A stretch of DNA of 64,000 nt, from NCBI RefSeq assembly GCF_900119145.1, contig NZ_FPIY01000005.1:124001-188000 (forward strand). Direction: 5' to 3'. The notes beneath the pieces are model-generated. The model saw only the letters and a program-made list of their open reading frames with translations. It was not told the DNA's origin and searched no databases. The stretch is from Cellulophaga fucicola (GTDB lineage Bacteria > Bacteroidota > Bacteroidia > Flavobacteriales > Flavobacteriaceae). Of this stretch, positions 18,281-47,931 are shown in pieces (the stretch's first letter is position 1; every line of letters begins with the position of its first letter). Both the position numbers and the translations under genes were made by a program.

Positions 18281-18409
18281 TTCTTTTTCAGTTTTTTTTA
18301 ATAGTTATACAACTATAAATAACCGCAATTACTAAAGTTTATTGCACAAAATGGTTAAATAAAAACACATTTAGCTTGCTAGTCCATTTTTGGTTGCTAA
18401 TTTTCAACA

Positions 18410-18530
18410 CAATGTAAAACTATTTTTTTGTGTTCAATTACGGATATGTGTAATTGGATAAGATTTACTTATAAATGGTATACAATTAGTTATGAGTAAA
18501 CTTTTCTTATGCTATTTAAAGTAGAAAGAG
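18410..18530. repeat. R5 boundary repeat, copy 1
   Basis: Starts CAATGTAAAACTATTTTTTT and runs through TTCAATTACGGATATGTG. By eye about 93 of its first 100 bases match 41091-41190, and most match 32449-32570, all in the same orientation. In the 41091 copy the end overlaps the last codons of the dnaE gene; here the corresponding stretch is degenerate coding remnant. Confidence 0.85.
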
Positions 18531-18627: not shown

Positions 18628-18674
18628 CTTTGTAGCGGGAACTGGACTCGAACCAGTGACCTTCGGGTTATGAG
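18628..18674. other. attL: 47 bp direct repeat of the tRNA-fMet 3' part
   Basis: Identical to 47854-47900, running from CTTTGTAGCGGG through the T arm and variable region to the anticodon loop (GGGTTATGAG). Here it is a fragment: the 5' half of the tRNA is missing and the sequence turns to TTTTAAAAAC. It is the displaced tRNA end left by integration. Confidence 0.95.
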
Positions 18675-23795: not shown

Positions 23796-24539
23796 TTATT
23801 CATTAAACAAATTATTATTTTGGTTTATATGTCTTTTAGCTTCTTCTAGCATATAAATTGTTTTACAGCTATTACAAAATAAAGTATACTCAAAATAGTA
23901 AGTTTGACTGGGTTTAATCTTCGTTTTTTTATTTCTCATTTTTTTAACTACAGGTTCATTACATTTTCTGCAAGGGTCTCCTTCTTTATTAACTTTTATT
24001 TTATTTAAAGAATTAGAATTAATTTGGTTAACACTTGCTTCTTTTACGCTAGTATCTTTTAGTTCATAGCCAGTATCATCAATTTTATCATTAGAATTTA
24101 TACCATAACCTGCAAGGGTATCACATCTCTCATTTTCTATGTGTCCTGAATGTCCTTTAACCCAATTAAATTCTACTGAGTGCTTTTCAATAACAGTTAG
24201 TAATTTATCCCATAAATCACTATTTACAGCTTTTGTATTCTTTGTTCTTTTCCAACCGTTTTTTTTCCATTTTTGAGCCCACCCCTTTGTTATGCCGTCT
24301 ATTACATATTTAGAATCTGTATAGACTTGAACATTGGATTTCACAGTTAATTTTTCAAGACCAAAAATTACACCCATTAGCTCCATTCTGTTATTCGTGG
24401 TTAGTTTATAACCTTTAAAGAACTCTTTTTTTTTGTCATTATATGTCAATATAACTCCAAAGCCACCCTTACCAGGATTAGGTTCTGCACCTCCATCAGA
24501 ATATAATTCTACATTTGGTTTTACTTCCCACTCTTTCAT
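23796..24539 (-). CDS. RNase HI with C-terminal zinc ribbon
   Basis: 247 aa protein; the first 150 residues are a complete RNase HI that cleaves RNA in RNA-DNA hybrids. Catalytic acids are Asp15 (LYSDGGAEPNPG), Glu53 (NNRMEL), Asp75 (YTDSKYVI) and Asp140, with His130 in VKGHSGH. The C-terminal part has CRKC (190-193) and CNSC (222-225), a zinc ribbon not found in housekeeping RNase HI. It is in module A, before the RecQ-UvrD fusion; both suit R-loop or hybrid processing. The housekeeping gene is expected elsewhere. Confidence 0.9.
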   Translation of the reverse strand: MKEWEVKPNVELYSDGGAEPNPGKGGFGVILTYNDKKKEFFKGYKLTTNNRMELMGVIFGLEKLTVKSNVQVYTDSKYVIDGITKGWAQKWKKNGWKRTKNTKAVNSDLWDKLLTVIEKHSVEFNWVKGHSGHIENERCDTLAGYGINSNDKIDDTGYELKDTSVKEASVNQINSNSLNKIKVNKEGDPCRKCNEPVVKKMRNKKTKIKPSQTYYFEYTLFCNSCKTIYMLEEAKRHINQNNNLFNE

Positions 24540-32183: not shown

Positions 32184-32448
32184 TTATATTTTTTTATGAA
32201 ACTAACAATTTTAAAAACTCTATAGTAATTATTTGGCATTTAAAATTATCAGAGTTAAGACTATTTTGGTTAATTACTTATAATATTAATTATATTTTTA
32301 AATATAGTTTTTACTTTGGATTAATACTTAGTATTTGACTATAATTTTCTTACACCTATGTTAATCTTATAACATACAAATTAATTATGAATAGGTATTA
32401 GATCTTTTTTTTATAAATATTTAGTACCACTAGAAATTCTCATTCTTA
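32184..32448. promoter_or_regulatory. AT-rich leader upstream of module A
   Basis: No gene. A short palindrome AATAC-TTA-GTATT at 32323-32335 lies about 140 bp before the first module A start and could bind a regulator. No clear TAnnTTTG box was seen. The remaining gap up to 32865 is filled by the R5 and R3 repeats and about 165 bp in which I see nothing. Confidence 0.3.
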
Positions 32449-32570
32449 CAATGTAAAGCTATTTTTTTATGTTCAATTACGGATATGTGTAATTGGGTGT
32501 CAATTATTTATAAATGGCATAAAATTGGTTATAAGTAAACTTTATTTTTACTATTTAAAGTAGAAAAGAG
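32449..32570. repeat. R5 boundary repeat, copy 2
   Basis: CAATGTAAAGCTATTTTTTT followed by TTCAATTACGGATATGTG, same orientation as 18410 and 41091 and somewhat more diverged. It lies on the module A side of the boundary between modules A and B. Confidence 0.8.
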
Positions 32571-32700
32571 GTAGCCAGTTAAACTTAACGCACATAACAA
32601 TAAAAAAATATAATAAAAAAGCTCAAAGAATCTGTTTTAAAATCTATGAGCTTATTCTTATAATATCTCAAATTAACAAAGAAATTGATTTTTAATTTTC
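32562..32700. repeat. R3 boundary repeat, copy 3
   Basis: GAGGTAGCC..TTAAACTTAACGCACATAA, then a hairpin and its downstream bases that parallel 16460-16540 (GAGCTTA..TAATA, then AA..TTGATTTTTA). It lies at the 3' end of module B, as R3 copy 1 lies at the 3' end of the nuclease-like/PLD pair. Confidence 0.65.
32619..32653 (-). terminator. Terminator in R3 copy 3
   Basis: AAGCTCA / TGAGCTT stem followed on the - strand by six T. It terminates the module B operon, about 210 bp after the AAA ATPase stop. Confidence 0.65.
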
Positions 32701-32865: not shown

Positions 32866-34461
32866 CTAAAATATATCTTCTTCCTTTTCTCTTTTTGTCA
32901 ATGTTTTAGTTTCATCTTTCTTTAAATCTTCTTTATCTATATCAGAACTTGCTGGTCTAGCTCTTGTTGATGCCCAATCTCTTAATCCGTCAATTTTATT
33001 TTTCATTGTGATTGCTAGAGGAACAATTGCTTTGGCTGATTCAATTAGATGTGATAATTTAATTGCTGGTTCTTCATTATTTTCAATATACGCCTTAAAC
33101 ATTGCTTCTTTTACAGTTTCTTCAATTTCAGCTCCATTGAAATATTTAGACTCATTAATTATTGGATTGAAGTCAGTTATATTTAATTGATTGTTTTTCT
33201 TAAGATGAATTTCAAATATATTTTTCCTTTCTTTTTTTGTTGGTAAGTCTATAAAAAAGATTTCATCAAAACGACCTTTCCTTAAAAGTTCAGGTGGAAG
33301 ATTGCTAATATTGTTGGCAGTTGCAACAACAAAAACTGGCTTCGTTTTTTCTTGCATCCAAGTTAAAATGGTTGAAAATACTCTTGAATTTGTTCCTCCA
33401 TCTTTTTCGCCACCTCCAGTACTTAATCCTTTTTCGATTTCATCTATCCACAAAACACAAGGTGCGATTGCTTCTGCTGTCATTATTGCATTTCTTATGT
33501 TGTTTTCACTACTGCCAACTTCTGATTGAAATACTTTACCTATGTCTAATTTTAATAATGGTTGATTCCATTCTGTTGCAATTGCCTTTGCTGTTAAACT
33601 TTTACCAGTTCCAGGAACACCTAAAAGCAACATTCCTTTTGGTTCTTTTAAACCGAATACTTTTGCCTTTCTTTCAAATGCTTTACTTCTTTGTTTCAGC
33701 CATATTTTTAAACTATCTAAACCACCAACGCTTGAATCTAAATTTTCTGTTGTATGATAATAATCTAGGATACCGCTTTTCTTGATTATCTGTTCTTTTT
33801 CACTTGCTATAATTCTAATTGCATCTTTACTATTTAAACCAACTTTTTCTTTTGCTAAGCGAAAAGCCAAATCAGCTTCAACATCTGTTAATCCTGCACC
33901 TGCATCAAGAATTAGGTTTTTTAAATCCTCGTTTATAGTTTCTTCTCTAATTATTACATTAAGCCGTTTTTCTAAATCATTTTTATCAGGTAAAGGCATA
34001 TTTAGAACTGTCACATATTTTTCTAATTCAATAGGTAGTTTGAAAAATGGGGATAGCAACAATAAGTGTTTGTTTAGTGCTTTAAAATATTGTGTTAGTT
34101 TTCTTAATTGAACCACAAATTTTTCATCTCGAAACTGTTTATGTGCATCTTCAATAATAAAAATCTCTTTTGATTCTCGGTTTTCATTATTACCTTTTAA
34201 TAAAAATTCAAGAAAAGAATCAGGATTTTTAGTTTCGCCATTATTAGGATGTTTCTCGACTTTATCTAATCTATTAGAATTTTCATCTTTATTGTGGATT
34301 TGTAAACCATCAACAATATCCCAAGTGCTAAATGTATATCCTTTTCTAAAAGCTGTGCTTCTAACTTTTTGAATTATGCGTCCATATTCAGGTGACGCTA
34401 AATAAATTAGTGGATAATTAGCGTCGAGCATATATTTTAAATCCTCAAATGATTTTTCCAT
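32866..34461 (-). CDS. Ycf46-like AAA+ ATPase (module B)
   Basis: 531 aa protein of the Ycf46 class of AAA+ ATPases, known from cyanobacteria and plastids and linked there with Ycf35/DUF1257. The N-terminal 200 residues form an inactive RecA-like fold (YPLIYLASPEYGRI, FIIEDAHKQF) without a P-loop. The C-terminal AAA domain has GVPGTGKS near 277-284, WIDEIEKG near 339-346, and the Arg-finger region LLRKGRFDEIFF near 395. A mixed-charge tail ends the protein. It is the last gene of the four-gene operon, 4 bp after the DUF1257-DUF2997 gene. It probably remodels a partner protein or complex; the partner is unknown. Confidence 0.8.
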   Translation of the reverse strand: MEKSFEDLKYMLDANYPLIYLASPEYGRIIQKVRSTAFRKGYTFSTWDIVDGLQIHNKDENSNRLDKVEKHPNNGETKNPDSFLEFLLKGNNENRESKEIFIIEDAHKQFRDEKFVVQLRKLTQYFKALNKHLLLLSPFFKLPIELEKYVTVLNMPLPDKNDLEKRLNVIIREETINEDLKNLILDAGAGLTDVEADLAFRLAKEKVGLNSKDAIRIIASEKEQIIKKSGILDYYHTTENLDSSVGGLDSLKIWLKQRSKAFERKAKVFGLKEPKGMLLLGVPGTGKSLTAKAIATEWNQPLLKLDIGKVFQSEVGSSENNIRNAIMTAEAIAPCVLWIDEIEKGLSTGGGEKDGGTNSRVFSTILTWMQEKTKPVFVVATANNISNLPPELLRKGRFDEIFFIDLPTKKERKNIFEIHLKKNNQLNITDFNPIINESKYFNGAEIEETVKEAMFKAYIENNEEPAIKLSHLIESAKAIVPLAITMKNKIDGLRDWASTRARPASSDIDKEDLKKDETKTLTKREKEEDIF

Positions 34462-34465
34462 TGGT

Positions 34466-35104
34466 TTAATTTTTTGCTATGATTTTATTTGAAGCACTAC
34501 AGTAAGACTTGTTTTTATATTTTACTGGTATTTCTTTTCTTTTTATTTCTATTCCTTCTCTTCTAGTATTTCCGAATGACTTTTCTATTCCTTCCATTGC
34601 TTTATCCGCTAACTCGTGAACATCATATGGAATATAGTTTGAATCTGAAATTATAGTACCATCTTTTAGAATTGAAAATTCTATTTCAGTACGTTTTTCA
34701 TCTTCATTTTCTAGCTTAGAATAACCAACCATAAAAAACTTCTCTTTCACTTCTTCATTTGGTTTAAAGTCGTAGTCTTTTTTTAAAGAAAACCCAACAC
34801 TTTCAAATTCAGTAAGAATAGTTTTTTTGGCATATTCGACATTTAAAACAAAAAAATCACTCTGCAATTTTTTAATTAATTCTTTGCCATTTTTTAAGTA
34901 ATAACTGTTATAAGTTACTGTTCCATTTTTAATTTGTATTGCATATTCTCCGTGAAGATTTGTATTTGGAATTTTAGTAACAACAACTTCATTATTACTT
35001 TTAATTTCATAATCCCAATTAAATTTTTTAACTGCTTCGATAAAAACCTCTGTTTTGAAAACTTGAGGGTTTTTTAGGAAAGTAGATGTTTCAAAACAAG
35101 ACAT
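34466..35104 (-). CDS. DUF1257 (Ycf35)-DUF2997 fusion protein (module B)
   Basis: 212 aa protein that looks like two small families joined. Residues 1-125 fit DUF1257/Ycf35: MSCFET at the start, the length, and VEYAKKTILTEFESVGFSL at the place of the family's YAYNKVLEEAKKxGF block. The end (about 138-195; TEIEFSILKDGTI, then ELADKAMEGIEKSFGN) fits DUF2997, whose short proteins read xIEFxIxxDGxVxE and CxxLTxxLExxLG. In other bacteria DUF1257, DUF2997 and a Ycf46-type ATPase occur as separate neighbours, so their presence here next to a Ycf46-like ATPase supports the assignment. It is spaced 1 bp from the PIN gene and 4 bp from the ATPase. No enzymatic motif. Confidence 0.6.
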   Translation of the reverse strand: MSCFETSTFLKNPQVFKTEVFIEAVKKFNWDYEIKSNNEVVVTKIPNTNLHGEYAIQIKNGTVTYNSYYLKNGKELIKKLQSDFFVLNVEYAKKTILTEFESVGFSLKKDYDFKPNEEVKEKFFMVGYSKLENEDEKRTEIEFSILKDGTIISDSNYIPYDVHELADKAMEGIEKSFGNTRREGIEIKRKEIPVKYKNKSYCSASNKIIAKN

Positions 35105-35105
35105 A

Positions 35106-37340
35106 TTATCGTTTTTTTCTATTGTTTAACTTTCTTTTTGAGAAACTTTTTATACTCAAGGACAATAACCTCGACAATTCGTCAATGTTTTTTGCTGGTA
35201 TTCCTTCAATTTCTGCCTTTAGCATTAATCCTTTATCCTTTGTTAAAATTATCGGATTTTTTCTCTTGTACTTAAGCGAAACAGACAAAATTTTATTGTC
35301 TGGTGAATTTTCGTCATAATCATTAGATAGGTTTGAGATATTACTCTCTTCGAAATATATATTTTTATCCTTTTGATGTTTAAGTATTTCCTTAATTGCT
35401 TGTTGAGCTTTATCTTTAATTTTATAATCTCTCTTTTTATTATCAAGTTCGTCAATAACTTTTTTAGAAAAGACAATATTTTGAAGTGGACCTATTACAT
35501 CTATAATTTTAGGTTCTTCAATTAGAATATTTGTGTCAATAATTATTGATTTTCTCTTTTTTATCAGTTCAAACTCTTTCTCTTTAAGTAAAAACTTCTT
35601 TTCCAATTCTAAGAATAAACTAGATTCTTGCTCTTCAAATTTTTCTTTTTCTTTATTTATTTTTGATTTTAAAGTTTTAAATTTTCTTTCATCAGACAAC
35701 TCTAAGATTTTAAGTTCTGCTAACATTGAATTTATAAAAGATTTTATTTTCTCATTTTTTGCATTTTTTACAGCCTTTAGCAATGCTATCTTATTTTCTC
35801 TAATTTCACTTAAAATTAAATCGTGTTCAGTTGAATTATAAAAAGGTCTTATTTTAAAATCAATATCCTCAATTTCCTTTATGCTATAATTAGATAAATC
35901 GTCATTATTAATTTTTTCAGCAATTAGAGAATCGATTTTATTATTAATATTTTTCACATATTCATCAGCAAAATCTCGCCTAAAAGAATCAATGTGCTCT
36001 TTGATTTCTACATTGGTATGTTTTTTAACGAATTGATATTTTATTGATTTACTACTTATTTCTAAAGGAAAAATTTCTTTTTTATATATAAATGTTTTGT
36101 TTGAGTTTTCAGTTATTACATTAAATTCATCTATGTTGCCAATTATTAAATATGAATTTAAAGTTTCTGAAACTTTACTTTTAAACTCTTCTAATTCAGT
36201 TTCTAAATCAACACTAACAGGAAGATAAATGAAAAGATATTTATCTTTTATGTCGATAATAATTTTAGATAATGTTTCAATTAGTAAACCTGACACCTTA
36301 TTAAACATTAGCCAAACTTCATTTTCTGAATTTTTGATAATTGTATCTAATTTATCAATAAACATAAATGGTTCAATAAATTCTAGTTGATTGACGTTTT
36401 TTGCGATTTTTTCAGAAATATTTTTATCCTCTGTTATTAACCTTTCAATTTCTTTTTGAGATTTAAGTAGCTCTTTTCGATATGAAAAATCACTAGAAGT
36501 TGGATTTTGATAAATACCATACTTGCGTAAAATTTGAAAAAACAAATTGTCTGCGTTTACTTTGTTTTCATTTAAATATGAAGAAAAGTAATCATTAGTT
36601 GTTTTTGAATATTCTTCATAAACAAGAGTTCTATATTTTCCAGAAATTACATCAACTAAAAAGACTGCATATAAAGTAGCAGATTTATGTTCTTTTTCGA
36701 TTAGAACAGAATCCTTAAAAGAATTCATTTTTGCAACATTATAAATTTCAGGGATTTGATTTTCTGAAAAAGATTTTAATAGTTGTTCATCTTCATAATT
36801 AATCCTAGAATTAATTGAATTTTCTTCAGTATTAACACTGTTCAAAAACTCAAAATTATCTTTTGCTATTGAATGGTGATTATTTGTGTTGTCAAAATAT
36901 AACTCAAACCGCTTATTTGTATGGACTTTAAATTTTTTTCCTTTTTGAAAGTATTCTTTACCAATATCAGTCAATTGGCAATAAGAATAAGAACTATCTC
37001 CAGTCGTTATCATCTCAAATTCTTCTAAACTTTGTAAAGCATCTTTCAAGATTTCATATTCGGCAAAGTCTTTATATTTTCTTTGAGAGGGATTGTCAGT
37101 TACATTAAATCCTAAAATTTCGCCTATTTCTTCAAAACTTAACGAGCTTTCAATATTTAGTAAACCACAAATAGTCTTGTCGAATAATGTAAATTCAACT
37201 GCTTCTGTACAAGTTGCAGAATACTTTGCTTTTGTAAAAAACCAGTCAAAAGGTTTATAGCCAAGATATATTTCTGTTAGTTTTTTATCTTGTTCTATTG
37301 CTTTAAATATGTTGTAGTCTATATTAGTCATCATTACCAA
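35106..37340 (-). CDS. PIN-domain nuclease protein (module B)
   Basis: 744 aa protein ending in a PIN ribonuclease domain (597-744) of the PhoH-like or NYN/VapC-like fold. All four acids are in place: Asp602 (IIIDTNIL), Glu631 (KVIDELD), Asp681 (NSPDNKILS) and Asp702 (ILTKDKGLM). Residues 1-130 contain a winged-helix-like region (CGLLNIESSLSFEEIGEILGF). A central domain is unrecognised, and a charged coiled coil (about 500-595) leads to the PIN domain. It overlaps the helicase gene by 17 bp, so the two are translationally coupled. The likely activity is endoribonuclease on an RNA presented by the helicase; this is inference. Confidence 0.75.
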   Translation of the reverse strand: MVMMTNIDYNIFKAIEQDKKLTEIYLGYKPFDWFFTKAKYSATCTEAVEFTLFDKTICGLLNIESSLSFEEIGEILGFNVTDNPSQRKYKDFAEYEILKDALQSLEEFEMITTGDSSYSYCQLTDIGKEYFQKGKKFKVHTNKRFELYFDNTNNHHSIAKDNFEFLNSVNTEENSINSRINYEDEQLLKSFSENQIPEIYNVAKMNSFKDSVLIEKEHKSATLYAVFLVDVISGKYRTLVYEEYSKTTNDYFSSYLNENKVNADNLFFQILRKYGIYQNPTSSDFSYRKELLKSQKEIERLITEDKNISEKIAKNVNQLEFIEPFMFIDKLDTIIKNSENEVWLMFNKVSGLLIETLSKIIIDIKDKYLFIYLPVSVDLETELEEFKSKVSETLNSYLIIGNIDEFNVITENSNKTFIYKKEIFPLEISSKSIKYQFVKKHTNVEIKEHIDSFRRDFADEYVKNINNKIDSLIAEKINNDDLSNYSIKEIEDIDFKIRPFYNSTEHDLILSEIRENKIALLKAVKNAKNEKIKSFINSMLAELKILELSDERKFKTLKSKINKEKEKFEEQESSLFLELEKKFLLKEKEFELIKKRKSIIIDTNILIEEPKIIDVIGPLQNIVFSKKVIDELDNKKRDYKIKDKAQQAIKEILKHQKDKNIYFEESNISNLSNDYDENSPDNKILSVSLKYKRKNPIILTKDKGLMLKAEIEGIPAKNIDELSRLLSLSIKSFSKRKLNNRKKR

Positions 37341-40300
37341 ATTCTTTTTTTAAGTTTTTGAAATCAACAACAATCCCTTCATCGTTTATAGTGTCAATTA
37401 CATTTTTATAAATTTGGTTTCCATTTTTATCTTTAAATCTGTAAAACATGTTTTTATTACCAACGACTATTAATAATCGTTTGGCTCTTGACAGTGCTAC
37501 ATTTAATCGCTTTGGTGATTTAGCAAAACCAATATCTTTGTTTGTTAATGTTACTCCGTTTTCAATTTTTTTATCACTTCTTACTGTTGAAACAATAATG
37601 ATATTTCTTTCCATTCCTTGAAATTTATCGACAGTATTTAATCGAACTGGTATATCATATTTGTTTCTTGCTTTTAAGGCAACTTCCTTTAGTTTAGATA
37701 CTTGATGTCCGTAAAAACTAATTAAACCAATTTCTTTTTCTTCTTGAATTTTATTTTGGTCATTACTGTTTTCCCAATATTTCATATACTCTTCAAATCC
37801 ATTTGATTTTTTCAGAAGTTTTATGACTAGCTCAACAGCTTCAATTTCATAATTATTTATTCTTGATGTTCCACTTAATTCTTCTGGCTCATCCACATTA
37901 ACCCAAATAGTATGAATATCTGGATTTATAAATTTATTAAGTAAAAATCCGTGATGTCTAGAAAATGGATTATTTAGATTTGGGTCATTTGCGTTTTCCT
38001 TTATCGGTTTTCCTGGTTCTAAACCACCTTCATCCAAGTAAAATTGTTTAATTACATTGTTAATTTTTGGATGCATTCTATATTGTTCATTAAATGTAGA
38101 TTTAATGGTTGTTGAAACTTTAGGGTGCATTATTAATCTTTCAAACTGAGAGGTTTCAACAAAGTCCTTGTTAATTTCAGATGCCAATTCTTTTGCTTCT
38201 GTTGTTTCAAGTGATTCTAATGTTTCTTTAAAGGTTTTATCGTGAAGCATTGGTGGTAATTGTCTATGGTCGCCAATTATAATGTTTTTGCGTCCAAAAC
38301 ACATTGGCAATAATAATTCAGGTGGTGTCGCTTTACTTGCCTCATCAGTTATTACTGTATCAAATTCAATAGGTTTAATTACCTCTAATAAATTTGTTCC
38401 TTTATACCAACCGTTAAAACCTATATGTTTTTTAATTAGATTTTTAGCTCGTTTATATAATTGACCAATTTCTAATTCGCCTTCATAATCGTTGAAAATT
38501 CGTTGATAATCAGCACCGAAATTTGGACTTCCTGCTGAACTACTTGTGCTACCAACAACATTTGCATATTTAAAGTATTTATCTTTAAATAAGGTTTTCA
38601 TTTCTTTATCAGGTTGAGCCATTTCAAAAGCCCAATCTTTCATAATGTCACTATATTTTGGATTAGATTGTTGAGAATTGTTCGCAATTCTTCGCATCCA
38701 TAATTGTACAGAATTATTGTAAAAATCTTCTTCAACTATTTCAACATCATCTTCCTCTAAAACTTCATTTTCATAATTATCATCAGTTTCAAATTTTTCG
38801 TCAACCCATTTCATTATGCGTTCAAACGCATACTTTTTTCCTTCTTCCTCAAACTTACTAGCTCTTCCAAAACGTATTGGTTTTACTAGTGTATGATTTT
38901 TATTTAGTAATTTTTCTAATGCGTTATCTACAGCAAGATTTGTTTCAGAAGTTAAAAGAATTTTTTGTTCTTGGTTAACTCTTACCATTTGCCAAATCAT
39001 TTCTGCGATAACAGTTGTTTTACCAGTTCCTGGTGGACCTTGAAGTAATGCTAAATCTGTACAATTTAAAGCAGATAGAACAGCTTTTCTTTGAGAATCG
39101 TTTAAGATTAGTAATTCGTGTCTTTTTAATTCATTCCATTCTTCCTCATCTTTTGAGAGGTTTTTATATATTTCCTCTGCTTTTGAACTATCAAAAATGA
39201 AATCTTTGATTTTTTCGTTTACAGGTTTTAGGTCTAATCCTTCTTTTGGATTAGTAATTTTATTCATTGCTTCATTTAGCCAAGATATTTTTGCTTGGTC
39301 TCCTCTTAAATTTGGTGTTACAAATTTAATTTTAGGTTCTTCTTCAATGAACTTGAAAAATTTATCTGTTTGACGTTTATCACCTGACCATTTATAAGGT
39401 AAGTTGAAAACATAATAATTATAGTCGGAATTTCTACCATTTAAATTTCCAATTACAACCTGTCTTTTTTTGTATTCAAATTTATCACCTCTATCAATGT
39501 AGAATTCTGAACGAGCTATCTGTCTTGTTTTATCCAAAAACTCTTCTTTTTTAGATTTTTTAGCTATGATGTCAATTTTTACTTTGAATTTAAAATCGTC
39601 ATTTAATGGCGAGAGCATAATATTAAATCTATTTAAAGATTTTATTTTCTCGTATTTTGATTTTAAATCTGAATAATCGACAAATTCAAAAGCAAGAGTT
39701 TGTTGTGATTCACTAACATTTGTGTCAAAATCGAATGAATAAAATTCTCGTTTTATTTCAGTCCAAAAAGTGTTTTTAAATGATGAGTTTTCAAACTTTA
39801 TTGGTTCGTTAACTCTAGATTGGTCGAATTGTAAATACACTTTTGACTTAACTTTATCTTTTCCAAAAATGGTGATTAATTCTTGGTACATTTTTTTTAG
39901 ACTATCAAATTCATTATGTTTTCTTGAGAAAACATTGTGCCTTAATCGTCTCAATAAATGGTCGCTAATATTTAAGTTCTTATCTAATTTTATATTGCAA
40001 TGCCAATCAATTTCGAATTCTGCTCCGTAACTCTTGAAGTAAAATTGCTCTAAAAACATTTTATCTACAACCTCTTGCTTTTGAGATAAATTATTTATGT
40101 AAACATTAATTGTATCGCTATTATTTGAAACTATAAAACGATTGTTAAATGTTTTACTAATTTTATTTGATATAGAAAAAGGTGTGATTTTAAGAACACA
40201 AGCAATTTGTTTATTCCTTTCGAGTATGGTTGTAAAATCTTTTTGTATAACTCTATCTAATACATCGTTAATATCTTTAAACCTCAAAAACAGACTTCCA

Positions 40301-40974
40301 TCAGGATTTATTCGTTCCTTTAAATTGAAAGGTTCTTCTGAAATAATCTTTTCAATATTCTTAAATTCTGGATTTTCTTCTTGCTTTAACTTAACTCGAA
40401 ATTGATAGAGTGATTCGTGAATATTTATCGGTTGGTCGTATTTGACTATTTCTAATGGTTGAGAATTTTTATTAAGAATGAGTTTTTGTGCTTCAATCCA
40501 TTTATCCCAAATTTCTTGCTGATTTTCAATTTCTGATTTTGGCGAAATTTCAAGTTTGCATATTTTGTTATATAAATCTTCTAATTCTCTTTGAGAGCGA
40601 TAAGGCTTTTTGAAGTCAATAAGTTTTACTATACAATTTTCAGTAATAGTATATTCATCTGAATTGAGTTGTTGAATTTCAGATATTACATTTTTCGATT
40701 TTTGATTTATTAATGTTTTGTAGTCGAAAGTTTGTTCTTGCCATTTTAATATAAACTCTATTTGCTTATTTTCAACTTGAAAAACTACTTTATGCTCGTC
40801 CTCATTTTTCTTTTGAAAGAAGCATTTTATTGATTTGTTTTCAATCCACCTTTTTAATTCTTCAAAACTTCCTTTATTTTGTTTGTCAAGAGTAGTTATT
40901 GCTTTATTCTCGAATCGTATTATTAGTTCTATAGGTTCGTCATCGAAAATATCTTCATTATTATGGTATGCCAT
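37324..40974 (-). CDS. UPF1-like SF1 helicase (module B)
   Basis: 1216 aa protein with a C-terminal UPF1/DNA2-type SF1 helicase. Motifs are NDSQRKAVLSAL (Q motif), LLQGPPGTGKTT near 655-666, TDEASKATPPEL near 875-886, GDHRQLPPML, EQYRMHPKIN near 960, VDKFQGMERNIIIVS near 1122 and NVALSRAKRLLIVVGN near 1160. The first 600 residues are a large beta-rich and helical region with no recognised domain, possibly substrate binding. Such helicases act on RNA or DNA 5'-3'. It is the first gene of a tight four-gene operon and overlaps the PIN gene. In eukaryotes UPF1 works with the PIN nuclease SMG6; the pairing here is only an analogy. Confidence 0.85.
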   Translation of the reverse strand: MAYHNNEDIFDDEPIELIIRFENKAITTLDKQNKGSFEELKRWIENKSIKCFFQKKNEDEHKVVFQVENKQIEFILKWQEQTFDYKTLINQKSKNVISEIQQLNSDEYTITENCIVKLIDFKKPYRSQRELEDLYNKICKLEISPKSEIENQQEIWDKWIEAQKLILNKNSQPLEIVKYDQPINIHESLYQFRVKLKQEENPEFKNIEKIISEEPFNLKERINPDGSLFLRFKDINDVLDRVIQKDFTTILERNKQIACVLKITPFSISNKISKTFNNRFIVSNNSDTINVYINNLSQKQEVVDKMFLEQFYFKSYGAEFEIDWHCNIKLDKNLNISDHLLRRLRHNVFSRKHNEFDSLKKMYQELITIFGKDKVKSKVYLQFDQSRVNEPIKFENSSFKNTFWTEIKREFYSFDFDTNVSESQQTLAFEFVDYSDLKSKYEKIKSLNRFNIMLSPLNDDFKFKVKIDIIAKKSKKEEFLDKTRQIARSEFYIDRGDKFEYKKRQVVIGNLNGRNSDYNYYVFNLPYKWSGDKRQTDKFFKFIEEEPKIKFVTPNLRGDQAKISWLNEAMNKITNPKEGLDLKPVNEKIKDFIFDSSKAEEIYKNLSKDEEEWNELKRHELLILNDSQRKAVLSALNCTDLALLQGPPGTGKTTVIAEMIWQMVRVNQEQKILLTSETNLAVDNALEKLLNKNHTLVKPIRFGRASKFEEEGKKYAFERIMKWVDEKFETDDNYENEVLEEDDVEIVEEDFYNNSVQLWMRRIANNSQQSNPKYSDIMKDWAFEMAQPDKEMKTLFKDKYFKYANVVGSTSSSAGSPNFGADYQRIFNDYEGELEIGQLYKRAKNLIKKHIGFNGWYKGTNLLEVIKPIEFDTVITDEASKATPPELLLPMCFGRKNIIIGDHRQLPPMLHDKTFKETLESLETTEAKELASEINKDFVETSQFERLIMHPKVSTTIKSTFNEQYRMHPKINNVIKQFYLDEGGLEPGKPIKENANDPNLNNPFSRHHGFLLNKFINPDIHTIWVNVDEPEELSGTSRINNYEIEAVELVIKLLKKSNGFEEYMKYWENSNDQNKIQEEKEIGLISFYGHQVSKLKEVALKARNKYDIPVRLNTVDKFQGMERNIIIVSTVRSDKKIENGVTLTNKDIGFAKSPKRLNVALSRAKRLLIVVGNKNMFYRFKDKNGNQIYKNVIDTINDEGIVVDFKNLKKEFGNDD

Positions 40975-41090
40975 TCATTCTCTTTTTATCAGTTCGGTTG
41001 TGCGTTGGCTTTTTTAGTTTAAATGTTCAATTTTAGCACGATTTTCGCATTACTTACAACCATATTGCAGTTTATTTTTTAATTTTTAAA

Positions 41091-41190
41091 CAATGTAAAA
41101 CTATTTTTTTGTGTTCAATTACGGAAATGTGTAATTGGATAAGAATTACTTATAAATGGTATAGAATTAGTTATGAATACCCTTTTCTTT
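41091..41190. repeat. R5 boundary repeat, copy 3 (overlaps the dnaE 3' end)
   Basis: CAATGTAAAACTATTTTTTT to the end of the DnaE coding region at 41190. The two other copies of this repeat carry a degenerate version of the last DnaE codons, so this one is probably the source copy. The 192 bp gap 40975-41166 has no other gene. Confidence 0.8.
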
Positions 41191-44169
41191 TAGACTTTTA
41201 AAAGTTGGTTTGTCTGATGCTCTTGGATCTCCTTGCTGTGCAATTTTTCGTGTCCAAATAGCAGCTATACTATAGTGCCCAAATTCTTCAGTTACTTTAC
41301 CGTAACACGCATACACACCAATACCTGTTATAGGATATTTATCTACTACTTTTGTAAAGTGTACAACATCAAAATAAGTACCTTCTTGGTCTATAAATGT
41401 ACTAAAGCGCATATGTTTGTTGTGCTTAGTAGTATTAAAACGTGTGTTTACCAAAATGCCATACAACAAAACTTCTTTATGCACATAATTTTTCATTTCT
41501 GTTGCTTTTGTGTTGCTAAGTAGTTGTTCTGCTATCATATCAAAATAACTGTACAACGGAAACCCCAAAAGCTCCATTTGGTCATACGCATCTTCTAACC
41601 AAGAATGCTCTAATACTGGTAACTCAAAATTTCTGTGTTTAGGTTTAAATAAACTAGGATTTGTGTTTCTTTTCTTAGACTTATTTAATTTAAAAATTGC
41701 TTGCCAGTGCAATTGGTTTTTCTGTAGTTTGGTAAAGCTAAAAGCGCCTATTCTTATTAAAATAGACAACTGCTCTATGCTTATGGCAACACGATCTATA
41801 AAATCATCTAAAGAACTATAGTTACCATACAATTGTCGTTCTGTAAGTAAACGTTGTATTACTAATTTTTCTAAATTCTTTACATATCCAAAACCCAAGT
41901 AAATATCCTTGCCTTTAATTATATTATGGTTGTTGCTATTGTTAATACATGGTGGGTGTATACTAGCGCCACACATACGAGCTTCGTGTATGTAATGTTC
42001 TGCTGTATAAAAACCACCTCCGTTATTTAATACAGCTACCATAAACTCTAATGGGTAGTAACACTTTAAATACATACTCTGGTAACTTTCTACAGCATAG
42101 GATGCAGAATGACCCTTTGCAAAAGCATAGCCAGCAAAACTTGCTATTTGTTCCCAAACCTTTGTAGTTAATTGGTCTGTGTAGCCTTTTGCTTTACAGT
42201 TTGACTTAAACTTGTTTTCTACCCGTGTAAACTCTTCTCTAGATTTAAACTTACCGCTCATTCCTCTACGCAACACATCAGCTTCGCCTAAGTCTAAATC
42301 AGCAAACTGATTTGCAACTTTTAAAACATCTTCTTGATACACCATAATACCATAGGTTTCAGGCATTATTTCGGCTAGAATAGGATTCGCTTGTTTACGT
42401 CTTTTAGGATCTCGGTGTCTTCTAATATATTCATTTTTCATACCAGAACTAGATACTCCTGGTCTTATTACAGAACTTGCAGCAACCAAGCCTAAATAAT
42501 CATTAACCCTAAGTTTACTCATTAAACCACGCATAGCAGGAGATTCTACATAATAAGCACCAGTTGCTTTACCTTGACTTAAAAGTTTGTTGATGTTTTT
42601 ATCTACTTTAAATTTTTCAACCTGAGTAATATCTATGTCGCCTACTTCTGGTTTATTTTCTTTAATAATATCTAAGGCATCTTTAATTTTAGCCAAACCT
42701 CGTTGTCCTAAAATATCAAACTTAAAAACACCTACATCTTCAGCTATATTCATATCAAACTGTACTGTAGGGAAACCTTTAGGTGGTAGGTCTGTTGCAG
42801 AATAATAATGTATTGGTTTTTCTAGTATTAATATACCAGCAGAATGTACACTAATGTAATTTGGAAAACCTCTAATAAGTGCACTGTATTTTAAAACCAG
42901 TTTTCCCATTTCATCTATGTCATTCATAGAAAAATGACCTTTGCATAGTTTGTCTATTTCTTCTTTAGGTAAACCAAATACTTTACCTAATTCCCTAACA
43001 ACAGCCCTGTATTTAAAAGTATTATAGGTTGCTAATAACGCTGTATTTTTAAATCGATTAAAAATATACGTAGTTACGTCATCTCTGTCTTTCCAACTAA
43101 AATCAATATCAAAATCTGGAGGCGAAGCACGGTAAGGATTGATGAAGCGCTCAAAATATAAATCTAACTCTATAGGATCTACATCTGTAATTCCTATTAT
43201 ATAAGCAACAATACTATTTGCACCACTACCACGACCAACGTGTAAATAACCCTTAGAATTGGCATAGCTTACTATTTCGTGATTAATTAAGAAATAGGAA
43301 ACAAAATCCATTTCTTTAATTGTTTTAAGCTCCACCTCTAAACGTTTTGTAACGGCATTAGTTATAGTAGAATATCGTTTTGGTAATCCAATACTACAAA
43401 GCTCATTTAGATATTCAAAATCAGCTTCTTTGGACTCTCCAAATACTTGTTGATTCTGTGAGACTCTATTTTCTCCAAAACCAAAACTTATAGAACAAGT
43501 AGACAACAGCTTTTTAGTATTTTCTATAATAAATGGGAAATCACCATAGGTTTTTAGCAACTCATTTATAGGTAACATTTTTTCTGACGGACTACCTTCT
43601 TCTGTTTTTTGAAGTTTACTTAGTAAGGTGTTGTTTGCTATTGCTCTTAACAAGCGGTGCGCATTAAAATCTCTTTTATTTCTAAACGTTACAGGTTGTT
43701 GAACTACCAATTTCTCTTCATACATTTTATATTTAGAAAATGGCAATCGTTTTAAGTTTTCTATAGAAATGCCTATGTATTCATTAGGTCTAAATTCTAT
43801 TTTCTCTAATTGTAAAACCTTTTCAAAAGGATAAATAAAAAATGCATTTGCTAGCTCTGGTGCTTCTTTAGGTAAAGGTTGTGATTTATGAGAGTACAGT
43901 GATAAAAAATCATTTAATTCTTTAAATCCTTCATTATTTATAGCTAAGCCTACATACAATTGTTCTGCTCCGTTTCTAAAATCAATACCAACAATTGGTT
44001 TTATTCCATATTCCTTAGATTTACGAATAAAGTTTAAACAAGCAGATGTATTATTGATATCTGTTAGCGCCAAACAAGACACGCCAAAACCTTTAGCCAT
44101 TTCCAAAAGGTCTATTTCTGAAAATGTACCAAAACGCAAAGAATAATATGTGTGACAATTTAAATACAT
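41167..44169 (-). CDS. DnaE-like error-prone DNA polymerase III alpha subunit (ImuC/DnaE2 type)
   Basis: 1000 aa C-family polymerase, shorter than replicative DnaE (1100-1400) and in the size range of ImuC/DnaE2. It starts with a PHP domain (NCHTYYSLRFGTF, ALTDINN, VGIDFRN). The polymerase acids are in PDFDIDF near 352-358 with a later FKFDILG near 480. The fingers show GRGSGANSIVAY and YQEDVLKVANQFADLDLGEADVLRRGMS. The end has an OB-fold (GILVNTRF onward). It is translated with the Y-family polymerase in a TAATG overlap. Such dinB-dnaE pairs are common in Bacteroidota and are thought to do lesion bypass. It is the island core nearest the cargo, and its 3' end is repeated at module boundaries. 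Confidence 0.9.
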   Translation of the reverse strand: MYLNCHTYYSLRFGTFSEIDLLEMAKGFGVSCLALTDINNTSACLNFIRKSKEYGIKPIVGIDFRNGAEQLYVGLAINNEGFKELNDFLSLYSHKSQPLPKEAPELANAFFIYPFEKVLQLEKIEFRPNEYIGISIENLKRLPFSKYKMYEEKLVVQQPVTFRNKRDFNAHRLLRAIANNTLLSKLQKTEEGSPSEKMLPINELLKTYGDFPFIIENTKKLLSTCSISFGFGENRVSQNQQVFGESKEADFEYLNELCSIGLPKRYSTITNAVTKRLEVELKTIKEMDFVSYFLINHEIVSYANSKGYLHVGRGSGANSIVAYIIGITDVDPIELDLYFERFINPYRASPPDFDIDFSWKDRDDVTTYIFNRFKNTALLATYNTFKYRAVVRELGKVFGLPKEEIDKLCKGHFSMNDIDEMGKLVLKYSALIRGFPNYISVHSAGILILEKPIHYYSATDLPPKGFPTVQFDMNIAEDVGVFKFDILGQRGLAKIKDALDIIKENKPEVGDIDITQVEKFKVDKNINKLLSQGKATGAYYVESPAMRGLMSKLRVNDYLGLVAASSVIRPGVSSSGMKNEYIRRHRDPKRRKQANPILAEIMPETYGIMVYQEDVLKVANQFADLDLGEADVLRRGMSGKFKSREEFTRVENKFKSNCKAKGYTDQLTTKVWEQIASFAGYAFAKGHSASYAVESYQSMYLKCYYPLEFMVAVLNNGGGFYTAEHYIHEARMCGASIHPPCINNSNNHNIIKGKDIYLGFGYVKNLEKLVIQRLLTERQLYGNYSSLDDFIDRVAISIEQLSILIRIGAFSFTKLQKNQLHWQAIFKLNKSKKRNTNPSLFKPKHRNFELPVLEHSWLEDAYDQMELLGFPLYSYFDMIAEQLLSNTKATEMKNYVHKEVLLYGILVNTRFNTTKHNKHMRFSTFIDQEGTYFDVVHFTKVVDKYPITGIGVYACYGKVTEEFGHYSIAAIWTRKIAQQGDPRASDKPTFKSLKEKGIHN

Positions 44170-45386
44170 TATTGTTTTCTATGAGCTAAAACAATTGGTG
44201 GTTCTCCACTAAATGGATTATGAAAACGACCTATAGTTTTTGCGCCCATAGATGTTGCTCTCATAATACTTTTTTCTCCATACTTTTGACGTATATGATC
44301 CATAGCATCATATAGATTTAGCATTTCTTCAGTGTCATCAAATAGGTTTATTTGATAATTGCCAGTTACTATGTCTGTATATTTTACGCCAACCAAGCGT
44401 ATTAACAAACGTCTATCATATAAACGCTCAAATAACTCTAATATCTTAGGTATTAAAATATGATCTGCACTCGTATAAGGTATTTTTATTTGTTTTGAAT
44501 AGGTTTGATAATCCGAATACCGAAGTCGAACAGAAATGCAAGCAGTTAATTTATCAGCTCTACGTAATTGATAAGCTAAATTTTCTGCCATTGCGGTTAA
44601 TGTGGTTCGTAACTGAACCATATTTGTTGTGTCTTTAGAAAATGTGCGCTCTGTAGAGATAGATTTACGCTCGTGAAACGGAATTAAAGGAGGTCTATCT
44701 ATTCCGTTAGCTCGTTTCCATATCACTTCACCTTTTACACCTAAAGCACTAACCAACATTTCTACAGGCATTTCTTGTACTATTTGCACTGTTGTAATCC
44801 CTAAATTACGCAGTGTTTGGTAGGTTTTTGTACCTACAGAAGGTATTTTCTGAATTGATAACGGTGCTAAAAATTGCTTTTCTAAACCATTGTCTACTCG
44901 CATTTGATTATTGGGTTTAGCCTCACCAGTAGCAACTTTAGAAACAATTTTATTTGATGATAAACCAAAAGATATGGGCAAACCTGTTTCTTTAATTATA
45001 GTATTGCGTAATTCTGTGGCAAATTTATACGTACCAAAAAACTTATCCATACCTGTTAAATCTGCATAGAACTCATCTATACTAGCTTTTTCAAACAAGG
45101 GTACACGTTCTTTTATAATTTGGGTAACAGTTTGCGAGTGCTTTGTGTAAATACTAGAATCTCCTCTAATTACTGTAGCTTCTGGGCAAAGCTGTTTTGC
45201 TAATTTCATAGCCATACCAGAGTGTACTCCAAACCTTCTAGTCTCATAACTACAGGCAGCAACAACACCTCTGTCTCCCGTGCCTCCAACTAAAAGAGGT
45301 CGCTTTACTAACGTTGAGTCAATTAAGCGTTCGCAAGACACAAAAAAAGTATCTAAATCTAAATGTAATATTGATTCTGGCTTCAT
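44169..45386 (-). CDS. dinB: Y-family DNA polymerase (DinB/ImuB-like), start corrected
   Basis: Lesion-bypass polymerase; from this start 405 aa. Using numbering with 17 extra upstream codons, the acids are Asp27 (HLDLDTFFVS) and Asp121-Glu122 (KASIDEFYADLTG). SYETRRFGVHSGM, then RIPSVGTKT-like helix-hairpin-helix and the little finger follow. QINLF near 366 matches a beta-clamp binding motif. The upstream ATG at 45437 lies before a TAGTTTTG promoter box (45425-45432) and a 17 bp palindrome (45389-45405), so the start used here is the second Met (MKPESILHLD) at 45386. It overlaps the DnaE-like gene by one base. Catalytically competent, unlike ImuB proteins that lack the acids. Confidence 0.85.
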   Translation of the reverse strand: MKPESILHLDLDTFFVSCERLIDSTLVKRPLLVGGTGDRGVVAACSYETRRFGVHSGMAMKLAKQLCPEATVIRGDSSIYTKHSQTVTQIIKERVPLFEKASIDEFYADLTGMDKFFGTYKFATELRNTIIKETGLPISFGLSSNKIVSKVATGEAKPNNQMRVDNGLEKQFLAPLSIQKIPSVGTKTYQTLRNLGITTVQIVQEMPVEMLVSALGVKGEVIWKRANGIDRPPLIPFHERKSISTERTFSKDTTNMVQLRTTLTAMAENLAYQLRRADKLTACISVRLRYSDYQTYSKQIKIPYTSADHILIPKILELFERLYDRRLLIRLVGVKYTDIVTGNYQINLFDDTEEMLNLYDAMDHIRQKYGEKSIMRATSMGAKTIGRFHNPFSGEPPIVLAHRKQ

Positions 45387-45388
45387 AT

Positions 45389-45405
45389 ATTGGATATAAT
45401 CCAAT
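45389..45405. promoter_or_regulatory. Palindrome upstream of the dinB start (candidate operator)
   Basis: ATTGGAT-ATA-ATCCAAT, 7 bp arms around 3 bp, between the promoter box and the dinB ATG. Position fits repressor control of the polymerase pair. No LexA box seen. Confidence 0.55.
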
Positions 45406-45424
45406 TGTAAAACTGGATATTTTC

Positions 45425-45432
45425 CAAAACTA
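45425..45432 (-). promoter_or_regulatory. Bacteroidota -7 box of the dinB-dnaE pair
   Basis: TAGTTTTG fits TAnnTTTG, about 40 bp before the chosen start. A TTTTG lies 15 bp upstream and may serve as the -33 element, slightly close. Confidence 0.5.
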
Positions 45433-45544
45433 CACATTAAAGCAAATCAAAACTCATTTTTAACATTGTTGTTATTAACAATGGTAATTTTTAGTAAATT
45501 GTAGTAAACGGAATTAATTATGTGTTACGGAATTAGAGTAGTGT

Positions 45545-46427: not shown

Positions 46428-47747
46428 CTATTGAAAATAATTAGAATAGTCTTCAGGAAGTGCAGCATCAATATCTCGAAGATACAATTCTAATGCTTGC
46501 ATAGTTGAATGTCCTGTTATTAATTGCATTTTACTTTTTATCATAGATGGTGTAGCATTTGGAACTTTGGCCATTTCCCTATATAATGTAGTGATGAAGG
46601 TATGTCTAAAACTGTATAAACCATAATCTGTACCAAGACCAAAATGATCCTTAACTTTTTTAAACTTTTTAGAGTAATGATTTCTTTTGTTGTCTTCTTT
46701 TGAATCCCATACACCACCAACAGAAGTACTTGTAAATAAAAAATCATCTTTTTTATAAATACTTAAATCAGGAAGTTCTTTTAATAAGATGTTTGGAATG
46801 ATTTTAATTTTTACAGGCTGATTTTTAGCTCTAACGTACAATTTTTTATCTTTTACATCAATATCTCCTATTCGTAATCGGCATACCTCTATAGGTCGTA
46901 AAAAATTATAAGAAACAAATTGAATAAACAACAATAATGTTTTGTCATTTTCTTTTAGATACTCAAAAATTTCTTCTTGTTGACTTGGAGTGTATGTTTT
47001 GTTGCGTTCTGGTTTAGAGTTTAATTTTGATATTTTTTGAAGAAAATTATCTGGAATTAGCTCATTTTCTTCAAATACCTGAAAAAATGAACGTAAATCT
47101 GTATGTGTATTATTTCGGTTACGTGCACTTGTTCTTATAAGTACATCATTTAAGTATCGCATTACAATCTTTTTGGTAATAATACTTATAGGTTGATCAG
47201 GGGTTATTTGTTGTGATACAAGCCATCGTTCAAATTGTCCTATTTTACTCTTAAACTTACTAAAAGAGTTTTCTTTCATAACACTTTGCTTCAATGGAAG
47301 AGCTAGTTCAAAAGCTTCTTTTATGCTTACAGTGTCTTTAGCAACAACAGTTGTAGTTTCTGTTGTTGGAATTATTTTAGTTGTTGGTGTAGTAGGAGGT
47401 AGATCAATTGTTTTTTCAGTTTCGATCTCTTTTTCTTTTAATTCTAAATATTGCTTAAGTGTTAAATTAGTTTTATAGGGGTCAAAACCTTCCTCTAATA
47501 AAATAACTAAGCTCTTAGCTAGAATATTAAGAATGTGCAATCTAGTTTTTTTGTCTTTATATCTATTTGCACCTGCTTTGATGTTTTGTTGACGAACTAA
47601 CTTATTTGTTTTAGGATTTCTAAAAGAAAAATATACATACCAGTCTTTTTCTAAGGCTAGTTTTTTTTCTTGTTTTGAAAGGGAACTCCAAGCATTAATA
47701 TCAATACCACCTGTGTAGATTTTTGGTTGTGAATATTTTAGCTTCAT
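46428..47747 (-). CDS. Tyrosine recombinase (site-specific integrase), start corrected
   Basis: Integrase of the phage/ICE family, 439 aa from Met20 of the longest frame. The N-terminal arm-binding part (KYSQPKIYTGGIDINAWSSL) is a typical Bacteroidota integrase start. In the full frame numbering the catalytic residues are Arg303 (FLRPIEVCRL), Arg400 (YSFRHTF, with Tyr in place of the usual His three residues before), His432 (ITGHST) and Tyr441 (ALELYLR). An ATG at 47804 would add KVHDKVHD, encoded by the GTGTAC repeats. Those look like arm-binding DNA, so the start after them is preferred. It lies 107 bp inside the tRNA repeat and reads away from the tRNA. Confidence 0.9.
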   Translation of the reverse strand: MKLKYSQPKIYTGGIDINAWSSLSKQEKKLALEKDWYVYFSFRNPKTNKLVRQQNIKAGANRYKDKKTRLHILNILAKSLVILLEEGFDPYKTNLTLKQYLELKEKEIETEKTIDLPPTTPTTKIIPTTETTTVVAKDTVSIKEAFELALPLKQSVMKENSFSKFKSKIGQFERWLVSQQITPDQPISIITKKIVMRYLNDVLIRTSARNRNNTHTDLRSFFQVFEENELIPDNFLQKISKLNSKPERNKTYTPSQQEEIFEYLKENDKTLLLFIQFVSYNFLRPIEVCRLRIGDIDVKDKKLYVRAKNQPVKIKIIPNILLKELPDLSIYKKDDFLFTSTSVGGVWDSKEDNKRNHYSKKFKKVKDHFGLGTDYGLYSFRHTFITTLYREMAKVPNATPSMIKSKMQLITGHSTMQALELYLRDIDAALPEDYSNYFQ

Positions 47748-47756
47748 TGGCAAATC

Positions 47757-47774
47757 GTGTACTTTATCGTGTAC
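47757..47774. repeat. Paired GTGTAC repeats at the right island end (possible integrase arm sites)
   Basis: TCGTGTACTT occurs twice, with GTGTAC at 47757 and 47769, a 12 bp period, 10 bp upstream of the preferred integrase start. It mirrors the pair at 18727-18744 in the other island end. Confidence 0.55.
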
Positions 47775-47808
47775 TTTTTGTAAAAGTAAGAAAATAGAAG
47801 ACATAAAA

Positions 47809-47853: not shown

Positions 47854-47931
<78 letters not shown>

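Follow-up and report, generated by a model that had tools for sequence, protein, structure and literature searches.

In this study, we analyzed a 64,000-nucleotide stretch of the Cellulophaga fucicola genome (contig NZ_FPIY01000005.1, positions 124,001 to 188,000; hereafter the window, numbered from its first letter) and found that a described defense core, a UPF1-type helicase with an exchangeable nuclease, is joined there to a conserved module of an AAA ATPase and a putative DUF1257-DUF2997 protein. The operon lies on the minus strand (32866-40974). Its four open reading frames encode a helicase of 1216 amino acids (aa), a PIN-domain effector of 744 aa, a 212-aa protein and an AAA ATPase of 531 aa. 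The nuclease exchange has left its trace in the effector, where a PLD-like region lacking the active-site motif is retained beside the PIN domain. We consider it likely that the operon is a horizontally carried anti-phage system in which a helicase-nuclease, probably RNA-directed, is gated by the AAA-DUF1257/DUF2997 module. The original prediction, made from the sequence alone, had described a tight operon inside a mobile island, with a superfamily 1 (SF1) UPF1-type helicase, a complete PIN active site and an AAA+ ATPase, and all of these points were borne out by the results given below. The spacing is indeed tight, with a 17-bp overlap followed by gaps of 1 bp and 4 bp. The start of the effector gene is listed as TTG, and in-frame ATG codons lie two and three codons downstream.

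A survey of gene neighborhoods, proposed earlier as a check, showed that the four genes are neighbors elsewhere. Three homologues of the 212-aa protein were used as queries against genome contigs, which gave 15 loci, Bacteroidota by title (L008 and L024-L026 were left out of the analysis). Since the scan needs near-exact peptide patterns, this number is a minimum and offers little guidance on other phyla. All four genes were present in the same order and on the same strand in 13 of the 15 loci (L009-L012, L014-L016 and L018-L023), and L005 is a further full copy. In L013 the contig starts inside the helicase gene, and the remaining genes are present. L017 is a lone 212-aa gene (1210-1854) on a short metagenome-assembled contig, in which tblastn found no convincing trace of the helicase, effector or AAA genes.

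The gene for the 212-aa protein is rare. When the source genome is counted, it occurs in 3 of 395 evenly drawn Bacteroidota genomes and, within the family, in three convincing and one doubtful case among 397 genomes; the doubtful match (G561, E 5.2e-4, with stops inside) was dropped. At the DNA level the window operon shares 88.7-92.8% identity with five others, four in records titled Lutibacter, Lacinutrix, Polaribacter and Aureivirga and one in a genome of another genus; between the copies of Lutibacter and Lacinutrix the identity is 100.0%. Such near-identity across genera points to recent transfer, while the identical pair might come from a contaminated assembly. None of 57 stretches from viral contigs encoded a relative, and the plasmids searched held no relative of the 212-aa protein and none of the PLD-type effector of L019.

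The window copy lies in an integrative island at tRNA-Met that is about 29.2 kb long (18.63-47.85 kb; 18628-47900). An exact 47-bp direct repeat, the 3' part of the tRNA gene, is found at 18628-18674 and again at 47854-47900, where it overlaps tRNA-Met (47858-47931, minus strand), and a tyrosine integrase gene (46428-47804, minus strand; Pfam Phage_integrase, 5e-12) stands beside the tRNA. Five regions of other genomes were fetched. In three close relatives (L043, L044 and L045) the left flank abuts the tRNA, so that the site is empty; in the other two (L046 and L047) the match was limited to 81 and 43 bp of the left side. A housekeeping complex for RNA decay or ribonucleoprotein remodeling, with no role in conflict, would agree with the likeness of the helicase to UPF1 and of the PIN domain to SMG6, which act in mRNA decay; given that the operon is rare, mobile and nearly identical across genera, we regard this explanation as very improbable.

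Other cargo of the island includes a GmrSD protein, type IIG and methyltransferase genes, an RNase H gene and a DEAD+UvrD protein. To describe the defense context, chosen neighbors from 12 loci were run against PADLOC (release of 2023), and matches with E < 1e-50 were called strong. Strong neighbors were present in six of the 12 loci (the window, L005, L010, L014, L016 and L021). They were DruE and a UvrD helicase (L014, L016), ZacC (L014), type IIG enzymes (L005, L016), a short Argonaute with its nuclease (L021) and the candidate system PDC-S73 (L010). In L014 (10544-18870) and L016 (12323-20643) a DruE-like helicase and a UvrD/GajB-like protein follow the four genes directly and in the same orientation, as if these operons were joined to a Druantia-type unit.

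The helicase (37324-40974) was identified as an SF1 UPF1-type enzyme by Pfam (AAA_11, 9.6e-41; AAA_12, 1.5e-39), by its solved relatives SMUBP-2, DNA2 and UPF1/NAM7, and by the motifs GPPGTGKT, DEASKA, GDHRQLPP, QYRMHP and NVALSRAK. The Pfam core covers residues 624-1174 (37453-39105). The PADLOC model of MkoA, the helicase of Mokosh type I, matched the helicases of the window (1.9e-98), L019 (2.4e-110) and L014 (2.9e-94), and a Pfam scan of these three helicases gave no match to a kinase or to NERD.

The effector (35106-37340) has a conserved N-terminal region, a PLD-like middle without the HxK motif, long helices and a C-terminal PIN domain. The PIN domain spans residues 599-718 (35187-35546) and was recognized by PIN_4 (E 1.2e-18, 68.1 bits against a cut-off of 21.9), by Foldseek and by alignment. 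Its four acidic residues (D602, E631, D681 and D702) are kept in all nine aligned PIN-type effectors, so the active site is complete, as had been claimed. The closest solved PIN domain is that of human SMG6 (2hww, E 4.0e-6), the first Foldseek match of the effector model. The original prediction had compared the operon with eukaryotic UPF1 and SMG6. UPF1 with SMG6 (or Nmd4) is indeed among the best solved matches of the helicase and the PIN domain; the similarity holds at the family level only, and the operon carries no sign of translation-coupled decay.

Effectors of 15 loci were aligned (L010 was left out, its operon DNA being identical to that of L009): nine end in a PIN domain and six have none. 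The N-terminal regions of the two types (residues 1-150 in the window, 36891-37340) are homologous in profile-profile comparison (P 1.2e-30), and so are their middle regions (P 9.6e-9 over 238 columns; P 0.3 for a reversed decoy). The HxK and GSxN motifs are found in all six PLD-type effectors, and neither occurs at the aligned positions of the nine PIN-type effectors, whose PLD-like region lies at about residues 320-445 in the window (36006-36383) and was traced by profile-profile comparison, alignment and weak Foldseek matches. The nuclease has thus been exchanged, with the catalytic residues kept within each effector type. Trees of the helicase (without L013), the 212-aa protein and the AAA ATPase each separated the PIN-bearing from the PLD-bearing operons with a support of 1.000, and this shared split indicates that the genes descend together. 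The L013 effector has an N-terminal extension of the PLD kind together with a PIN domain.

The AlphaFold2 model of the window effector had a mean predicted local distance difference test score (pLDDT) of 81.1 and a predicted template modeling score (pTM) of 0.58, and its middle region is built of alternating strands and helices. Weak Foldseek matches were BJ-TSA-9 (4urj, E 0.017), also known as the PLD-like pseudoenzyme FAM83A, and the NgoAVII R protein (4rct, 0.065). Winged helix-turn-helix (wHTH) proteins were also matched by the whole model: TrmBL2 (E 4.3e-4, root-mean-square deviation about 20), HpaR (0.058) and LmrR (0.084). The Foldseek table gives matches of the whole model with the aligned part not indicated, and a pTM of 0.58 means that the domain arrangement is uncertain; for these reasons the N-terminal region is called wHTH-like only by inference.

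These features make the helicase-effector half of the operon a relative of a known kind, judging by sequence: it is kin to MkoA and MkoB of Mokosh type I and resembles CnuH and CnuE of the CoCoNuT systems. The claim that no named system has this gene set therefore held in part: the full set had no match in PADLOC, NCBIfam or the open-licence literature searched, whereas the helicase-effector half has known kin. PADLOC and NCBIfam held no model that matched the window PIN protein or the 212-aa protein. Mokosh type I shares with the window an SF1 helicase of the COG1112/UPF1 type and a separate nuclease gene, and MkoB was matched by both PLD-type effectors tested (4.6e-9 and 7.7e-7). It differs in that the window effector carries a PIN domain and an HxK-less PLD-like region, and in that two conserved genes, for the AAA ATPase and the DUF1257-DUF2997 protein, are added. 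Published accounts give Mokosh type I a kinase (PMC11672841) and NERD (PMC10952713), and Mokosh is said to degrade viral transcripts (PMC11291487). Pfam found no kinase in the four window proteins or in the L019 and L014 helicases.

The CoCoNuT paper describes operons of a UPF1-like helicase (CnuH) followed by a wHTH-effector (CnuE), which has an N-terminal wHTH, a coiled-coil linker and an exchangeable nuclease and is predicted to target RNA; its authors propose that the two are coupled via the wHTH (PMC11090510). The window shares with CoCoNuT types II and III the UPF1-like helicase and the gene order; a wHTH in the window effector is suggested by the weak Foldseek matches whose place in the model is not indicated. 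In place of CnuB and CnuC, the window operon has the AAA ATPase and the DUF1257-DUF2997 protein; no McrB-type GTPase (CnuB) or McrC (CnuC) was matched among the four window proteins, whose ATPase is of the classical AAA class. A PIN effector is not mentioned in the searched text of that paper, where 'pin' occurs only as an author name (PMC11090510). Since the kinase and the McrB GTPase were looked for and not found, the operon was assigned to neither system.

It is possible, if rather unlikely, that the operon is a divergent Mokosh type I. MkoA would then be the helicase, the effector would be an MkoB that has swapped in a PIN domain, and the other two genes (212-aa and AAA) would travel along as accessories. 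Besides the MkoA matches of three Bacteroidota helicases and the MkoB matches of two PLD-type effectors, the N-terminus of a PIN effector from Polaromonas, discussed below, matched MkoB at 1.4e-4. This view must be set against the three scanned helicases, which showed neither of the domains with which type I is described, and against the 212-aa and AAA genes, which accompany the helicase in 14 of the 15 loci and whose trees follow the helicase tree.

The AAA ATPase (32866-34461) belongs to the classical, CDC48-like AAA class, with its AAA domain at residues 277-405 (33247-33633; PF00004, 1.5e-32). Against NCBIfam its matches were far under the cut-offs. The ATPase matched IetA of PADLOC at 2.2e-25, and NCBIfam IteA scored 84.6 bits against a cut-off of 510. 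The partner of IetA in the IetAS system is the IetS protease, and no peptidase family was found among the Pfam matches of the four window proteins. The name Ycf46 for this ATPase comes from the original prediction and was given by no search result.

Relatives of the ATPase on plasmids (34.6-41.3% identity over 93-95% of its length) stand beside DUF1257 and/or DUF2997 genes. Of 12 opened plasmid loci with a relative of the ATPase, nine carry, by annotation, DUF1257 and/or DUF2997 close by and on the same strand, and three (H2, H27 and H31) have neither annotated. These clusters of AAA, DUF1257 (Ycf35) and DUF2997 occur on plasmids of Cyanobacteriota, Bacillota and Actinomycetota. The AAA protein is placed beside the same DUF families as in the window, with the difference that the DUFs are separate small genes on the plasmids, whereas the DUF-like parts are fused and remote in the window operon. 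We know of no description of the cellular role of the AAA-DUF1257-DUF2997 module, including its relatives in photosynthetic organisms. One report lists DUF2997, DUF1257 (ycf35) and fed7 as cluster g of the Synechocystis ferredoxins (PMC4284462). The best plasmid relative of the ATPase (44%), in Treponema succinifaciens (L027), is surrounded by the VgrG/baseplate genes of a contractile injection system and directly preceded by a gene for a 4Fe-4S protein.

Neither Pfam nor NCBIfam assigned the 212-aa protein (34466-35104) to a family. Among 16 homologues, Pfam matched DUF1257 (PF06868) weakly in three (best E 0.038) and listed DUF2997 (PF11211) for none, and other families did as well or better: RnlB_antitoxin in five (best 0.005), DUF2812 in five (0.0059) and NSUN5_fdxn-like in six (0.032). 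PF06868 had only one match in the source genome, away from the operon (E 0.147), and matched two places in 198 Bacteroidota genomes, neither related to the operon. The family was also compared, profile to profile, with seven DUF1257 and nine DUF2997 plasmid proteins. Residues 14-112 (34769-35065) matched the DUF1257 profile (P 8.1e-5 over 93 columns) and residues 138-197 (34514-34693) the DUF2997 profile (P 5.2e-4 over 52 columns), in the order DUF1257 then DUF2997. None of 200 column-shuffled decoys reached either score, a lenient control since column shuffling destroys local structure. Smaller sets of five proteins each scored weaker (P 0.0008 for DUF1257, where two of the five were annotated as hypothetical only, and P 0.021 for DUF2997). 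The label DUF1257-DUF2997 thus failed in direct family searches and was supported by the profiles and by the gene context of nine of the 12 plasmid loci; taken together, context and profiles favor a remote, fused DUF1257-DUF2997 relative.

An AlphaFold2 model of the 212-aa protein (pLDDT 78.8, pTM 0.73) had no Foldseek match at E ≤ 0.001, and for this reason no fold is claimed. The first match was the RnlA chain of an RnlA-RnlB structure (E 2.6e-3), and the family may be related to RnlB. An addiction or competition module would suit these Rnl matches and the mobile setting, which is an integrative island in the window and plasmids in Pseudomonadota. A toxic nuclease would be kept in check by the AAA and 212-aa proteins, and the main effect of the unit would be to stabilize its island or plasmid. 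PIN domains often serve as toxins. Against such a module, the Rnl matches are weak, the operon spans 8 kb with a large helicase, and several copies stand beside other defense systems; we consider such a role improbable, more so than a divergent Mokosh type I.

In the anti-phage system that we favor, the helicase and the nuclease effector would form the first module, probably as a complex held through the conserved N-terminal region of the effector. The helicase would track along foreign or aberrant RNA, or less likely single-stranded DNA, and place the PIN domain to cut; in the sister operons a PLD-like nuclease would be the cutter instead. The second module would consist of the classical AAA ATPase and the DUF1257-DUF2997 protein as its adaptor. 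Through this adaptor the helicase-nuclease complex would be brought to the AAA ring, and the ring would either keep the complex inactive or remodel it to an active state upon infection. An RNA target is suggested by analogy with the CnuH-CnuE-type operons and by a near-threshold C-terminal match to OST-HTH/LOTUS in the PIN effector of L014 (5761-8217; residues 761-810, E 4.4e-5, 23.7 bits against a cut-off of 23.8). The title of a paper names OST-HTH/LOTUS as a predicted RNA-binding domain.

Several results weigh against this reading. The homology of the 212-aa protein to DUF1257 and DUF2997 is remote, and the family had no relative among solved structures at E ≤ 1. A helicase-PIN pair was annotated at none of the nine plasmid AAA-DUF1257/DUF2997 loci, which indicates that the module has other uses. 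The best solved-structure stretches of the helicase are confined to its core, and its N-terminal part of about 550 aa was left without assignment. Pfam found no PLD domain in the five of six PLD-type effectors scanned, so that the label PLD-like rests on the motif, the MkoB match and homology, and PADLOC had no match for the PIN effector of either the window or L013. In the other six of the 12 loci, the neighbors chosen had weak PADLOC matches or none. DNA can be a substrate of PLD nucleases. According to PMC11090510, UPF1-like helicases work on single-stranded DNA as well. For these last two reasons, RNA is spoken of here as the probable target only.

Operons of similar layout were found on Pseudomonadota plasmids, in the genera Polaromonas, Acinetobacter, Photobacterium and Moellerella (L049, L054, L055 and L059), and encode a helicase, a PIN protein, a protein of 367-381 aa, an AAA+ protein and a 4Fe-4S protein. 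Among 283 plasmid records with a helicase match, 11 were opened; by annotation, three had the five-gene operon and eight did not. Nine records matched the Photobacterium PIN protein, of which four, from four genera, were opened (one of six Moellerella records). The helicase, PIN effector, hypothetical protein and AAA+ protein follow the same order as in the window. Between the two phyla, only the PIN domains of the PIN effectors give a firm alignment (P 4e-16; P 0.1 for the N-terminus). In L049, L054 and L055 the AAA+ protein is of the ClpB/AAA_2 class, unlike the classical AAA of the window, and the extra protein belongs to the 4Fe-4S single-cluster kind and, in L055, is NrdG-like. The third protein matched neither the 212-aa family of the window (P 0.73) nor DUF1257 (P 0.36), and its end is weakly DUF2997-like (P 0.0033; by Pfam, E 0.05 for L054 and no match for L049). 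A similar logic, a helicase-nuclease with an AAA protein and possibly a DUF2997-like partner, is thus found again with a different AAA.

These observations allow a broader and more speculative proposal, which we hold to be possible but doubtful. The AAA-DUF1257/DUF2997 pair could be a portable licensing module for UPF1-helicase/PIN machines, giving an immunity by RNA surveillance like that of UPF1-SMG6, with a Clp-type AAA and radical-SAM-like Fe-S variant in Pseudomonadota and with client remodeling as a first function for Ycf46/Ycf35, which are orphan proteins in cyanobacteria and plastids. Confirmation of the anti-phage system would make the function of Ycf46/Ycf35-type proteins testable by phage assay, and the operon would then be a bacterial parallel to UPF1-SMG6 decay.

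Helicases of this kind were also seen with a different partner. On a Hymenobacter plasmid (L048, 6762-15060) the gene after a related helicase encodes a DarT-family ADP-ribosyltransferase protein, and the annotation of a Nostoc plasmid match (H45) shows the same pair, which suggests another effector class.

The operon had been said to have its own terminator. A scan for consensus terminators gave no entry at the 3' end; a hairpin with a longer loop, a 7-bp outer stem and a T run (32615-32653, minus strand), about 210 nt past the last stop, may end the transcript as a candidate intrinsic terminator (-10.9 kcal/mol, equally low in 1 of 500 letter shuffles). A repeat of about 110 bp occurs in the same orientation at 18398-18527, 32448-32567 and 41080-41189, which brackets the operon and lies just outside the left end of the island. 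It was dropped as a module boundary; with nine matches in the genome, three of them here, it is not specific to the operon. Elsewhere in the island, the 1605-aa DEAD and UvrD helicase protein (18819-23636) adjoins the RNase H protein, which has a weak Mut7-C match (23796-24539). At 41167-45437, a polymerase of 1000 aa, DnaE-like as judged by eye, comes before a Y-family (ImpB/MucB) polymerase; the island may carry the two as a mutagenic repair pair.

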